Source: Cyclobacteriaceae bacterium | GTDB taxonomy: Bacteria > Bacteroidota > Bacteroidia > Cytophagales > Cyclobacteriaceae | Reading direction: 5' to 3' | Length of the DNA stretch: 64,000 nucleotides | Assembly: GCA_016787665.1 (NCBI GenBank) | Contig: JAEUUC010000010.1 | Coordinates: 310,001 to 374,000 of the forward strand | Shown here: piece after piece, positions 57,652-62,144 of the stretch | Position numbering within the stretch: the first letter of the stretch is position 1 | Layout: each line of letters starts with the position of its first letter | Position numbers and translations under genes: made by a program | Notes under the pieces: model-generated | What the model was told of the DNA's origin: nothing | The model's input: only the letters and a program-made list of their open reading frames with translations | Database searches by the model: none

Positions 57652-60273
57652 TCAACTGTCTGTTCCTTTTGTCGGGGGCGTAAGGGTGATCTTCGATATC
57701 TCATTGAGGGTTGGCTTTTTGGTACCAAACTCGTGCTTTGCCAAACACATCTTTATTAGATAACCGATCTCTCGAACTTCCTCTTCAGTTGTGAAATCAT
57801 AGCTATACTTAGCAGAAAGCGCTCGCTTGATGTCAAATAAATAAAAGGAATTCTTACTCAAGGATGTTATATAGTCTTCTATCTCCTTTCGCCACCCGCG
57901 TGGTCGTGTTGAAATGATTAGTAGAGCTATCTTATGCTTCTGATTTTCATCCTTTTCCGATTGGAAAAACTCAAAAAATAGCGGTCCGAGTTTGCTGGAA
58001 AAGATATCGTCCTTGAAAAATCTTACCACATTCATCATGTTGACTAATATGATCTTTTTAACTCTTTCTTCAAACGTATCACCAAAATTGCCATTCAGGA
58101 AAAAAGCTTGTCCCTCAAATTGAGCGCGACCTCGGTCAGCTAGTATAGGTGTAAGCGCAAGCAATACACGAGACACCTGTTGCCAGCTCCTCACAATTTC
58201 GTTAAAAATCTGTCTCTTTAGATCGGGGTCTCCATAGTCACTGTTTCTTAGTGCTCGTGATGCAGCGCGAATATTCTGCATTAGATTATACACCGAATAT
58301 TCTGCGAAAAATTTCTGAATGCTTTGGTTATAAGGCCGAATTTGATTGTAGCTCTTGTCGGCATGCTGGTCTTTAATTGTATCTGGAAGCCCAGAGGCCT
58401 TTACTCCATCGCTGAGGGCATTCTGTGCAAGTTGAATCTGCTCTTCGGTGGGTTGCCACTTTATGTGGGCGAAAGGATTCATGTCTTCGGGGAATTTCAC
58501 TTTGCTTGTCACGGTGTCACATGTCTCACGGATATCTTTGATGAGCACTTCAAGGGCGTTGTTACTATTGCGGTTGATACCAGTGTAAAACTCAATGATC
58601 TCTGGAAAAGCAATATACTTTTTTGATTCAAAAATGTATTTAGCAAATCCTGGATCATAATGCATTCTTTTAGCAGCAAAATAGAAAACCCAATAACTAG
58701 ACCTAAATCCAAAATCAACATCACGTCTTACAATAATGTTGTTAGCACATAAAATCTCAAACACACTCTCAATCTCAAGATCAATCAATTTGCTTTTGCA
58801 AAAAGCCTGAAGTTCAGTCATAAATTTCTCCTTTGAAAAGAGATAAGTTTCTTTCCGAATCATCATTTCGCAAAAATGCCCCAAGACATGCTCGCAATCT
58901 TTTAGGTCTGGCTTCGTTTTGTATCTATGCAATGAGTCCATTGTAAATAAGACAAATAGAATCATCTCAATCAGGTTTGTTCGATTTACTGGACTTTCGT
59001 CAAAATACTTTTCTGAGACTTTCAGAAGAGTTAAACAATTCATTGGTGTTCGATGAATATTCAAAACCTCCATGTCAGAGAGTACCTTCGAAAGCACCTT
59101 GTCCTCTGCGCCAATTCCCTTTGCTTTCACATATTCCGATACAACCTTCCGTATTTGCGTTCGGGGAAGCGCAAGCAAATGCAAAATTTTGAACTCTCTG
59201 TTAATTGAGACATTGTGGGTCTCATCATGGAATCGGGCATCGTCAATTGTGTGCATGACGATAATTGGAGTAGTTGGGTAACTATCACAAAGATTTTTCA
59301 GTTTCCTTATACTATCATTTTCAGAGCTACTCCATGAATCAAGCACAATTGCTTTTATTGGCTTCCCAGCTAGTCCTAACGCCTCAATTTCCCTATTTGC
59401 AGCATTATGAATATTATGAGACTTTGTCTTCTGCGAATCAATGTAGACCCAAATATCTCCTATGTTCCAAGCTTGACTGACTAGGTAATGAGCAAGGCAA
59501 GTCAGTCCAAACTGAGGCGGTGCCTTGACAATAGTGGAGATGGGGTTGGCAATAAGTTCAGAAGGCTTGTATCGGTTTTCGTAGTTCTCAGTAGGGTTAG
59601 TTGAAATTTCATTTGTTTTGCTCAAAATAGGGTCAACCCAAATAATGGGTTGAGAACTAAAAGCCTTTAAAGACAAGTTTAGCCGCTCTTCAAGCTTAAC
59701 ACGAATCATTTCAGCTTGGACATTTTCCTTTGTTGAAGTGGTCGGGTTAATATTATACTGATCCAAAAAATATTGAGTTACTTGAACTCGAAGCGTTTTT
59801 TCAAAATCTTGTGCCCCATTATAACTCCAGTGATAGCCACCTAGGTCACTTATCTTTCTTTTAAACGCGTTTATCCTTAAAATCTCATTTGGATCAACCG
59901 CGCTTTTCTTAATTGGCTCATCATTGAAGTAAAACATTATTTGAACAGGCTCTTTCTTAAGTATTCTCTGGTAGGCGTTGTTGAATTCCTCCTCCGTGCC
60001 TGATCCAGCCACTTTTGTCTCTGTCCCAAATCTGTTATTCATGATTCCTATGAAGATATCATAGTCGTAACCTAGTTGAGCACTTACCACCGCTTGAGGA
60101 TATTCGCCAAAACCGGGGCGTGTGTTATGCTCCCACATTCTCTTTTCAATAACAAATCCGAATCTTACCCCTAGGCTCTGATTAAGTTCCTCGAATATGC
60201 TTTCGCAAATTCTCCTCTCGACTGCCGTGTCACCAGGAGATGCTACAAGACATTTGAATACTTTTCTATCCAT
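57652..60273 (-). CDS. DUF4062 protein with degenerate P-loop, candidate STAND-type immunity protein
   Basis: An 873-residue cytoplasmic protein. Residues about 5-170 match the DUF4062 fold: VFKCLVASPGDTAVERRICESIFEELNQ, then YDIFIGIMNNRFG and a C-terminal DFEKTLRVQVTQYFL. DUF4062 often stands at the N-terminus of bacterial STAND NTPases. Residues about 243-350 look like an NTPase core with a degenerate Walker A, VKAPPQFGLTCLAHYL (no GK[ST]), and a Walker B-like AIVLDSW (D312). The remainder (to 873) is helical without a family I recognise. No partner gene, signal or membrane helix is seen. A sampled line of its DNA is about 32% GC against about 55% in a sampled gltB line. Function is inferred from architecture only. 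Confidence 0.65.
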   Translation of the reverse strand: MDRKVFKCLVASPGDTAVERRICESIFEELNQSLGVRFGFVIEKRMWEHNTRPGFGEYPQAVVSAQLGYDYDIFIGIMNNRFGTETKVAGSGTEEEFNNAYQRILKKEPVQIMFYFNDEPIKKSAVDPNEILRINAFKRKISDLGGYHWSYNGAQDFEKTLRVQVTQYFLDQYNINPTTSTKENVQAEMIRVKLEERLNLSLKAFSSQPIIWVDPILSKTNEISTNPTENYENRYKPSELIANPISTIVKAPPQFGLTCLAHYLVSQAWNIGDIWVYIDSQKTKSHNIHNAANREIEALGLAGKPIKAIVLDSWSSSENDSIRKLKNLCDSYPTTPIIVMHTIDDARFHDETHNVSINREFKILHLLALPRTQIRKVVSEYVKAKGIGAEDKVLSKVLSDMEVLNIHRTPMNCLTLLKVSEKYFDESPVNRTNLIEMILFVLFTMDSLHRYKTKPDLKDCEHVLGHFCEMMIRKETYLFSKEKFMTELQAFCKSKLIDLEIESVFEILCANNIIVRRDVDFGFRSSYWVFYFAAKRMHYDPGFAKYIFESKKYIAFPEIIEFYTGINRNSNNALEVLIKDIRETCDTVTSKVKFPEDMNPFAHIKWQPTEEQIQLAQNALSDGVKASGLPDTIKDQHADKSYNQIRPYNQSIQKFFAEYSVYNLMQNIRAASRALRNSDYGDPDLKRQIFNEIVRSWQQVSRVLLALTPILADRGRAQFEGQAFFLNGNFGDTFEERVKKIILVNMMNVVRFFKDDIFSSKLGPLFFEFFQSEKDENQKHKIALLIISTRPRGWRKEIEDYITSLSKNSFYLFDIKRALSAKYSYDFTTEEEVREIGYLIKMCLAKHEFGTKKPTLNEISKITLTPPTKGTDS

Positions 60274-60492
60274 AACCGAGTTATTCTATTGATTTTTAAA
60301 ATAATGAAGATTGGTTTAGGAAAAATTTTTCAATCAGATTCTACTTCTTCCATTTGCTCTCTAAGGTCTTACCCGCACTATTTGCACTATGCTAATTTGC
60401 CTATGTCAAACCCCAATTTACGGCTTCACCTCATACGCGTAACGCAGAGGGCCGGATTTTTTTGATGGGGGTAAAGAAAGGGCTGGTTACGG

Positions 60493-60646
60493 CACGCTTC
60501 GACAGTCCGATCGCTATCGGACTCAGCGTGACAAAAACTAATCATGTCAGTCTGAGCTAGTCAAAGACTGACAGTGCCCAAAACACGCTTCGACCGGCTC
60601 AGCGTGACAAAACCCTACTGTCAGTCTGAGCTAGTCGAAGACTGAC
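60493..60646. repeat. Four alternating palindromes (types A, B, A, B)
   Basis: Type A: CACGCT...AGCGTG arms at 60493-60530 (with an inner perfect stem AGTCCGAT/ATCGGACT) and a shorter copy at 60584-60606. Type B: GTCAGTCT...AGACTGAC at 60545-60573 and again at 60620-60646, with an identical centre apart from one base. All units are followed by a run such as ACAAAA or ACCATT. A third type A copy overlaps the end of the GIY-YIG gene (60984-61021). Confidence 0.85.
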
Positions 60647-60647
60647 C

Positions 60648-60679
60648 ATTGCACATAGATTTTGGCCGTCTTACCTTTA
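60648..60679 (+). promoter_or_regulatory. Promoter ATTG - 20 - TACCTTTA of the GIY-YIG gene
   Basis: ATTG at 60648-60651, immediately after the last B palindrome, and TACCTTTA at 60672-60679 (one mismatch to TAnnTTTG) are 20 bases apart. The -7 box ends four bases before the ATG at 60684, so the transcript would be leaderless. Confidence 0.55.
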
Positions 60680-60683
60680 GACT

Positions 60684-61022
60684 ATGAGTCGAGATCATCG
60701 ATACTTTGTCTACATTGTTGAATGTGCTGACGGCCTATATTACACAGGAGTAACCAACAACCTCGACAAAAGATTACACGAGCATAATGAAGGGGTTGAT
60801 CCCAAGTCCTTCACGTATAGGCGCAGGCCCGTAAAGCTTCGCTATTGGCTCGAATTCCAGGACGTTAATCAAGCCATTGAGTGGGAGAAGCAACTGAAAG
60901 GTTGGGGACGAAAAAAGAAAGAAGCGCTGTTCAACGAAGATTGGGAGAAGATCAAACTATTGGCGAAGAGTAGTATGCGTAGTCACCCTTCGACCGTCCG
61001 ATCGCTATCGGACTCAGCGTGA
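60684..61022 (+). CDS. GIY-YIG nuclease domain protein
   Basis: A 112-residue single-domain GIY-YIG protein: RYFVYIVECADGLYYTGVTNNLDKRLHEHNEGV holds the GIY/YIG-like strands and the catalytic Tyr and Arg, and AIEWEKQLKGWGRKKKEAL carries the conserved catalytic Glu and basic region. It is of the UPF0213/YhbQ type. The last ten codons lie inside a type A palindrome (60984-61021), which supplies the stop codon. It is preceded by four related palindromes. The family cuts DNA; the link to the palindromes is a hypothesis (see findings). Confidence 0.88.
   Translation: MSRDHRYFVYIVECADGLYYTGVTNNLDKRLHEHNEGVDPKSFTYRRRPVKLRYWLEFQDVNQAIEWEKQLKGWGRKKKEALFNEDWEKIKLLAKSSMRSHPSTVRSLSDSA
60984..61021. repeat. 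Third type A palindrome, overlapping the GIY-YIG stop
   Basis: CACCCT (one mismatch from CACGCT) and AGCGTG form the outer arms; the inner perfect stem GTCCGAT/ATCGGAC (60996-61002 and 61007-61013) has the CGCT loop of the first type A copy. The stop TGA of the GIY-YIG gene is at 61020-61022. Confidence 0.85.
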
Positions 61023-61034
61023 CAAACATTTGAC

Positions 61035-62144
61035 TCACTTCGGAAAAATCTTCGGATCCAAACCGGGAATAACTTTCAGCGCGTTTTTGTAGTACAGCTT
61101 CTTCAAAATGTCATCGGGCAAGCCAATACCATACATGCGCCAAAAGGCATGGTAGCGTTTGTGGTACGGAAAATATTCATCCTCGGTCTCCAGCACGCGG
61201 AAGTACGTCTCGTATTCATCCGGCTGCCAACTGTCCTTGCCAAACAAAATGCGATCCTGGTATTTCGTGAGAAACGCTTTCGCTGCGCGCGGCTGCCGTC
61301 CCAGTTCGGCAATCACCGCGCCAATTTCGCTGTACATGTTCGGCATCTCGTCCATCAGCGAGGCCAGTTTCTTCAAATCACTGCCGTACCAGCCCAGGTG
61401 AGCATTGATGAAGATGGTTTTCTGATGCTTGCGAAACACGTTGTGCTGCTCAGCAATCAGGGTCTCCCATTTCACAGGGTCGGTGTCGTGCCTGCGGCCG
61501 GGGTGCAGTTTAAGTTCCAGCCAGCGTTCGTTCTTCTCGTCAATGGGTTGCCAAAACTGTTTCGGGTCGGCCGAGTGAATGAGCACCGGAATACCCAACT
61601 CGCCACACTTGGCCCACACGGGATCAATACGGGGATCATCAATGGGAATACGATTGCCGTTGGCATCTTTCATCATGCCCAGGCTTTTGTAAATCTTCAA
61701 TCCCTTGGCGCCCGCCTTCACATCTTCCTCCAGTTGCCGGGCCGAGCGCGCACCCCAGTCCGCCTCGTGAATGCTGCGGAAGTCCACGTTGGTGAACACC
61801 ACAAAGCGCGCAGGGTAATTTTTCTGCACGTTGTCCATCGACTTCTCCAAATGTTCGCGGCTACCCATGCCTCGCCCGCTCAGGTTCACCATCACGGCCA
61901 TGTTGAGTGCGTCCATCTTTTTCACCAACTCACCCAGGTCCATCGTGGGCATGCTGAACTGATGATTATGAATATCAATAAACGGAAATTTGGCGCGCGT
62001 CACGCGGTGCTCCTCCACCACCAGCGATGATGGCGGATCATATTGTTCAAAATCCATTTTCATCTCCAGCGGTTTCTCCTGTGCGCGAAGCGAAAACGCA
62101 GACAACACCAGGAACGCGATAGGGCCAATTACCGGTTTTTTCAT
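61035..62144 (-). CDS. Exported amidohydrolase-family protein
   Basis: A 369-residue protein with the signal peptide MKKPVIGPIAFLVLSAFSLRAQ. The amidohydrolase-2 barrel starts FPFIDIHNHQFSMP, with the HxH metal pair; further ligands are H in PVLIHSADP, H in IFINAHLGWYG and D in RILFGKDSWQPDE. This fold covers decarboxylases and hydrolases of the ACMSD type; the substrate is unknown. Its stop converges with the GIY-YIG gene, 12 bases away. A stable hairpin lies in its upstream region. Confidence 0.85.
   Translation of the reverse strand: MKKPVIGPIAFLVLSAFSLRAQEKPLEMKMDFEQYDPPSSLVVEEHRVTRAKFPFIDIHNHQFSMPTMDLGELVKKMDALNMAVMVNLSGRGMGSREHLEKSMDNVQKNYPARFVVFTNVDFRSIHEADWGARSARQLEEDVKAGAKGLKIYKSLGMMKDANGNRIPIDDPRIDPVWAKCGELGIPVLIHSADPKQFWQPIDEKNERWLELKLHPGRRHDTDPVKWETLIAEQHNVFRKHQKTIFINAHLGWYGSDLKKLASLMDEMPNMYSEIGAVIAELGRQPRAAKAFLTKYQDRILFGKDSWQPDEYETYFRVLETEDEYFPYHKRYHAFWRMYGIGLPDDILKKLYYKNALKVIPGLDPKIFPK

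Follow-up and report, generated by a model that had tools for sequence, protein, structure and literature searches.

Whether a small GIY-YIG gene and the palindromes that enclose it belong together, much as REPs belong with their RAYT transposases, is the question raised by the window analyzed here, a stretch of 64,000 nucleotides (G000:C5:310001-374000) that is part of the 3.74 Mb genome of a Cyclobacteriaceae bacterium. Five copies of one palindromic repeat were found around the gene. Four alternate in orientation (+, -, +, -) within 154 bases upstream (60493-60646), and a plus-strand copy lies at the end of the gene (60984-61024).

60493..60533, plus strand: repeat copy 1 (type A of the sequence-only reading); arm CGCT, TCGA core, extra apical hairpin, CTC, arm AGCG, tag TGACA; fold as single-stranded DNA -12.9 kcal/mol, z -4.2
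60545..60572, minus strand: repeat copy 2 (type B), inverted element; tag TGTCA at 60545-60549, arms GTC/GAC, TTTGAC for TTCGAC, one mismatch to the core
60584..60609, plus strand: repeat copy 3 (type A, short loop); arms CGCT/AGCG, tag TGACA at 60605-60609
60619..60646, minus strand: repeat copy 4 (type B); tag TGTCA at 60619-60623; closest upstream copy, in minus orientation as in most relatives
60684..61022, plus strand: GIY-YIG (putative nuclease) gene, ORF of 112 aa, Pfam GIY-YIG match with E 1e-17
60984..61024, plus strand: repeat copy 5 (the third A); one mismatched arm pair, tag TGACA at 61020-61024; closest downstream copy

The hairpins and the gene

Read in its own orientation, the repeat consists of an arm, TCGA, a variable apex, CTC, the partner arm, and an unpaired tag TGACA. 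Its core is TTCGAC-NN-GCTCA, which places a TCGA/CTC mismatch inside the hairpin. An additional apical hairpin (GTCCGATCGCTATCGGAC) is present in copies 1 and 5 and missing from copy 3, and the five copies fold as single-stranded DNA with z values from -1.9 to -4.2. An automated repeat search with a 12-nt minimum listed no inverted pairs at the locus; the arms are shorter than that minimum. Rfam gave no match in 60300-61100. The A, B, A, B series that the sequence-only reading had described in the 154 bases ahead of the gene was seen at 60493-60646. Its alternation is real, but the two supposed palindrome types are one repeat lying on opposite strands with different arms. That a third A copy forms the last codons and the stop also held, as the tag of copy 5 provides the stop TGA (61020-61022) and the last codons are likewise derived from the repeat.

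By its domain and predicted fold (mean pLDDT 80.9), the encoded protein belongs to the GIY-YIG family, with putative nuclease activity. Invariant Tyr, Arg, and Glu positions, which are catalytic in GIY-YIG nucleases, are present, and a C-terminal segment KQLKGW-RKKKEAL is conserved. Residues 100-108 and 110-112 had a pLDDT below 50, and the repeat-encoded C-terminal tail is disordered in the predicted structure. The nearest solved structures were those of UPF0213 (YazA-like; 1zg2 and 1ywl) and Slx1, and NCBIfam held no model for the gene. YazA/YhbQ-like UPF0213 proteins share the domain, but the two YazA-type genes examined have a tRNA on one side and an rRNA methyltransferase gene on the other and carry no repeats, unlike the gene of the window.

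Association of hairpins with GIY-YIG genes

A search for related loci yielded 36 loci. Close homologues of the gene were found to sit between the same hairpins, whereas distant homologues do not. When 296 genomes of the phylum were searched with a profile, at most 16 candidates being scored per genome, at least 62 genomes had a match at E 1e-20. Of 53 clade-A Bacteroidota GIY-YIG genes, 52 had an NGAC-tagged hairpin within 300 bp, and the density of these hairpins was 5.63 per kb within 300 bp versus 0.114 per kb beyond 600 bp, about 49-fold. In the ACC clade, 15 of 20 genes had an ACC tag at a distance of up to 300 bp and 19 of 20 had any tag there, with densities of 4.83 versus 0.165 per kb. 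No tagged hairpin (NGAC or ACC) was found near the 23 distant GIY-YIG genes, and none arose in 1060 shuffled flanks. Some of the tested loci had served to define the hairpin motif, so these motif-based counts are partly circular, unlike the motif-free test below.

Because some flanks had been viewed while the motif was written, a motif-free test was added, in which the upstream flank was compared with the reverse complement of the downstream flank and had to exceed the 99% shuffle level. Of 53 clade-A genes, 46 passed and seven failed; of the 32 other Bacteroidota genes, 18 passed and 14 failed; and in the plasmid-borne set, mostly alphaproteobacterial, 10 of 11 passed. As controls, none of the 23 distant GIY-YIG genes and one of 90 mock positions in the same loci passed. 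L170-L172 formed a separate control in this test; L107, L114, L122, and L134 belong to set B and stand outside both the ACC and the CGTC groups in the association count. Left out of all sets were L031 (frame broken) and L058 (partial match of 37 residues), and L077 was skipped as a repeat of L099.

Where copies stood on both sides of a clade-A gene (43 genes), 26 showed a minus copy upstream and a plus copy downstream, giving outward-facing TGTCA...TGACA. The hairpin supplies the stop codon in four of the 53 clade-A genes, a scripted count in which the imperfect copy of the window is not included. The REP-RAYT-like pairing proposed earlier was recovered as an association, with hairpins that cluster at a GIY-YIG clade across many genomes and a hairpin class that tracks the nuclease clade.

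Five of 11 other GIY-YIG genes in the window's own genome also passed the motif-free test; several of these lie between tRNA fragments and are a separate matter. At L012, L013, L016, and L017, several genes stand beside a tRNA gene, with an exact or near-exact tRNA piece of 21-35 nt repeated across the gene, and at L014 a stretch resembling a tmRNA end is repeated. The tRNA-adjoining genes look like a separate GIY-YIG element that targets tRNA genes.

Hairpin tags and cores along the nuclease tree

On a tree of 120 GIY-YIG proteins, which has only 102 columns and many open forks, the TGAC-type and ACC tag labels required one change. Genes with the ACC tag fall in a clade of 20 (support 98). 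The CGTC clade comprises 16 proteins (support 100) with five Rhizobiales, Azospirillum, and Sphingobium genes, Planktothrix and Spirosoma genes, and nine Bacteroidota rows, and the flanks of its genes mostly carry CGTC/TGTC-type palindromes. CGTC REPs flank GIY-YIG genes in Alphaproteobacteria. The loose CGTC hairpin model also matched in 260 of 850 shuffled flanks, a high background, so this class rests on hairpin density at its GIY-YIG genes (3.95 versus 0.33 per kb), the motif-free test, and the reading of flanks. In a smaller tree, the rows L014 and L016-L018 are valid, and L012, L013, L015, L019, and L020, translated on the wrong strand, are disregarded.

Three genomes (G057, G226, and G012) hold both TGAC- and ACC-clade genes, each with its own tag. 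The window's genome likewise has its TGAC-type gene plus another GIY-YIG gene in the CGTC clade, and five of the 12 genome copies of a second, CGTC-type repeat (GTCATGGCGAGG) lie within 500 bp of the latter. Since single genomes hold two clades with their tags kept apart, lineage alone cannot explain the match of tag and clade. Core length followed the same line, with all five short-core and all 18 long-core genomes carrying more of the matching repeat. Enzyme clades and hairpin tag and core thus appear to co-diversify. Among the Bacteroidota members of the CGTC clade, L135, L158, and L164 were seen to be flanked by palindromes of the TGTCATTCTGAG or TGTCATCCCGAG type.

Covariation of the hairpin arms

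When 52 distinct copies were selected solely by their core, all three core-adjacent arm pairs were complementary in 50 copies each (shuffle means 37.5, 16.4, and 21.1). A selection by TCGA...CTC-N4-TGACA only gave 283 copies, of which 218 had arm pair 3 paired (shuffle mean 73, maximum 98) and 206 had arm pair 4 paired (shuffle mean 87, maximum 113). The tag in these 283 copies is fixed whatever stands opposite and does not covary. As the arms were left free in these counts, they can be said to vary in step with each other around a constant core and tag, and the hairpin appears to be selected as a structure.

Distribution across genomes

In the window's genome, CTTCGACNNGCTCAGNNTGACA with up to three mismatches gave 23 matches versus two for the reversed control; three of the 23 copies lie in the 154-base array and 20 away from the gene. 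The expectation that a genome-wide count would place the palindromes at GIY-YIG genes was borne out in the densities at clade-A genes (5.63 versus 0.114 per kb); the 20 of 23 copies that lie elsewhere in this genome count against the proposed pairing. Dispersed inverted repeat pairs at C3:275276, C5:402424, C9:106924, C10:85413, and C7:322739 of the same genome are enclosed by a longer palindrome common to them (AGAAGCCATCTCAAAAA ... TTTTTGAGATGGCTTCT), so that the REP pair has a MITE-like shell.

A single fixed pattern was too narrow as a genome-level test, and a second core and a generic hairpin were added. Among 66 repeat-rich Bacteroidota genomes (at least 10 copies of the two core patterns), 42 had a match to the A1 profile at E 1e-20, compared with at least 20 of the other 230 genomes, for which at most 16 candidates per genome were scored. 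The odds ratio was 18, with a p-value that is overstated because the genomes are related. The remaining 24 of the 66 had no close nuclease by the same profile and threshold. The sequence-only reading had named palindromes in genomes lacking the nuclease as counting against it, and to that extent they do occur.

A deeper rescan scored all candidates of 28 genomes, including these 24, and 25 loci were inspected. Beside a tagged repeat, G072 and G021 have a GIY-YIG frame interrupted by stops, and G166 has a weak but intact homologue. The remaining inspected loci showed no tagged repeat of the window's kind, with doubtful single matches in G274 and G035. Tagged repeats can outlive or lack a close nuclease, just as REPs outlive RAYTs or occur without them, and the genome-wide co-occurrence of repeats and nuclease is strong, not absolute.

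Presence and absence of the unit

In Azospirillum lipoferum 4B, a GIY-YIG gene (protein WP_014249537.1) with REP dimers lies between sufB and sufC. At the same site, four Azospirillum relatives (flanks 89-97% identical) lack the unit and have only a short intergenic stretch, and the exact insertion boundaries of the Azospirillum unit could not be fixed. The site that gene and repeats occupy in Sinorhizobium C101 holds a single palindrome in S. meliloti Ak57 (flanks about 95% identical). Between S. meliloti strains, one site holds a REP dimer or monomer and another a dimer, a remnant, or a near-empty site. In the window's genus, the neighbouring amidohydrolase gene was matched in 20 of 24 genomes, none with the nuclease beside it; relatives of the GIY-YIG gene occur elsewhere in G300 and G315. 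The strain polymorphism that had been anticipated was accordingly met with in other species, both as repeat variation between S. meliloti strains and as presence or absence of the GIY-YIG unit. At the five compared sites, neither a clean target site nor a target duplication was found, and gain and loss were not distinguishable. Shinella H4-D48 and WSC3-e were rejected as a junction pair as they are too divergent around the unit, and tandem identical GIY-YIG genes in G154 showed no clean ends.

Relation to known repeat systems

The locus resembles REP-RAYT systems in its short tagged palindromes, its REPIN-like inverted pairs, the flanking of the gene by genome-dispersed copies, and the class-specific pairing of enzyme and repeat (PMC3733652 in part). 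It differs in that the enzyme is a GIY-YIG protein unrelated to HUH and in that the tag is TGACA/TGTCA or ACC instead of GTAG. PF01797 (Y1/HUH transposase) had no match in the window's genome, while the same search matched five of 14 control genomes. GIY-YIG homing endonucleases of the I-TevI type share the domain and the presence or absence at shared sites, but here no intron or intein host was seen, and a single small domain stands with hairpin repeats on both sides.

GTAG and CGTC REPs were defined by Di Nocera 2013 (PMC3733652), where TGTC and CCTC variants are noted, A. lipoferum is listed, and CGTC REPs are said to ‘apparently lack a dedicated transposase’. The A. lipoferum and S. meliloti repeats fit the description given there, with a CGTC/TGTC/CCTC tag, an AT-starting stem of 8-9 bp, a loop of 4-5 nt, a CCA tail, and inverted dimers, and some Bacteroidota repeats beside GIY-YIG genes fit it as well. 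The window repeat shares the TGTC at the tag end but has short arms around a TCGA/CTC mismatch core in place of the 8-9 bp stem and 4-5 nt loop, and no CCA tail. That study reported no dedicated transposase for CGTC REPs, whereas here a GIY-YIG gene lies between the copies. The consulted passages of PMC12306157 mention no nuclease, transposase, or RAYT. No paper linking GIY-YIG genes with REPs was found among open-licence PubMed Central papers. Within that scope the link would be new, the CGTC-tagged repeats themselves having already been described without a partner gene in PMC3733652.

Weighing the explanations

Tagged hairpins with covarying arms flank the genes of a clade of short GIY-YIG proteins, and their tag and core follow the protein clade. 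Gene and hairpins are probably the GIY-YIG counterpart of a REP-RAYT pair, in which the enzyme would cleave and the unit would be mobile. From the co-diversification, the covariation, and the clustering, we infer that the nuclease recognises the folded tagged hairpin, for which the TCGA/CTC internal mismatch and the unpaired tag would serve, and, with single-stranded or cruciform DNA as substrate, it may nick next to the tag. Since GIY-YIG enzymes act by hydrolysis of DNA and are not known to carry out strand transfer, copies would probably spread by cut-and-copy, through homing-like repair from a donor copy, and not by the chemistry of a transposase. A gene enclosed by two inverted copies would form the autonomous unit, and REPIN-like inverted pairs elsewhere in the genome would be non-autonomous.

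The nuclease could instead be a homing parasite of REPs, inserting where a hairpin already stands while the hairpins spread by other means. Such a parasite would suit the gene-less Ak57 site, with one palindrome where C101 has gene and repeats, and the repeat-rich genomes without a close nuclease, but it is unlikely, since tag and core of the hairpins follow the nuclease clade and no Y1/HUH transposase that could move the repeats is found in the window's genome. Neither two-sided inverted flanking in dozens of loci nor the presence and absence of whole units is predicted if the protein serves host maintenance, trimming or resolving hairpins and cruciforms as an Slx1-like structure-specific nuclease, with flanking copies that are autoregulatory or accidental. 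We consider this role quite improbable, even though Slx1, a nuclease of branched DNA, is among the nearest solved folds and the dimer and monomer states between strains fit deletion.

Hairpins just 3' of the gene, which sometimes supply its stop (four of 53 clade-A genes), could be terminators or attenuators of GIY-YIG and other genes, unlinked to nuclease action. They also lie upstream in the opposite orientation, are dispersed genome-wide, and keep a fixed tag without covariation, which leaves an RNA role very improbable. True transposition is equally improbable; here hairpin-bounded units would be excised and inserted, as in IS200/IS605, through GIY-YIG chemistry or with the help of a host partner. 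The outward-facing tags TGTCA...TGACA on both sides and the units present or absent at shared sites speak for it, but no target duplication or clean junction was seen at the compared sites, and GIY-YIG enzymes are not known to join DNA.

The preferred reading, a GIY-YIG counterpart of the REP-RAYT pair, may extend beyond this locus. The chances seem about even that GIY-YIG nucleases are the missing dedicated enzymes of a TGTC/CGTC and new ACC-tagged REP superfamily. They would then form a second system of REP propagation by hairpin-specific nicking and copying, evolved independently of HUH RAYTs in at least Bacteroidota and Alphaproteobacteria, with clades and tags co-diversifying. REP-like palindromes are widespread in bacteria, and the CGTC class had no known partner enzyme according to PMC3733652. 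A nuclease that tracks hairpin tag and core is a candidate partner, and matched enzyme-substrate pairs are at hand in culturable Azospirillum and Sinorhizobium; the origin and spread of the repeats are therefore directly testable. If the reading is true, a single-domain GIY-YIG protein convergently fills the role of an HUH transposase.

Two further observations concern the surroundings of GIY-YIG genes. Tandem arrays of near-identical GIY-YIG genes with a period of about 320-910 bp were found at G236:C1:120138-122186, at G132:C1:1384658-1385513 and 1733875-1734727, and at L099. In the window, the GIY-YIG unit is adjoined by a minus-strand gene (57652-60273) for an 873-aa protein with an nSTAND_NTPase4 match, possibly a defence gene.
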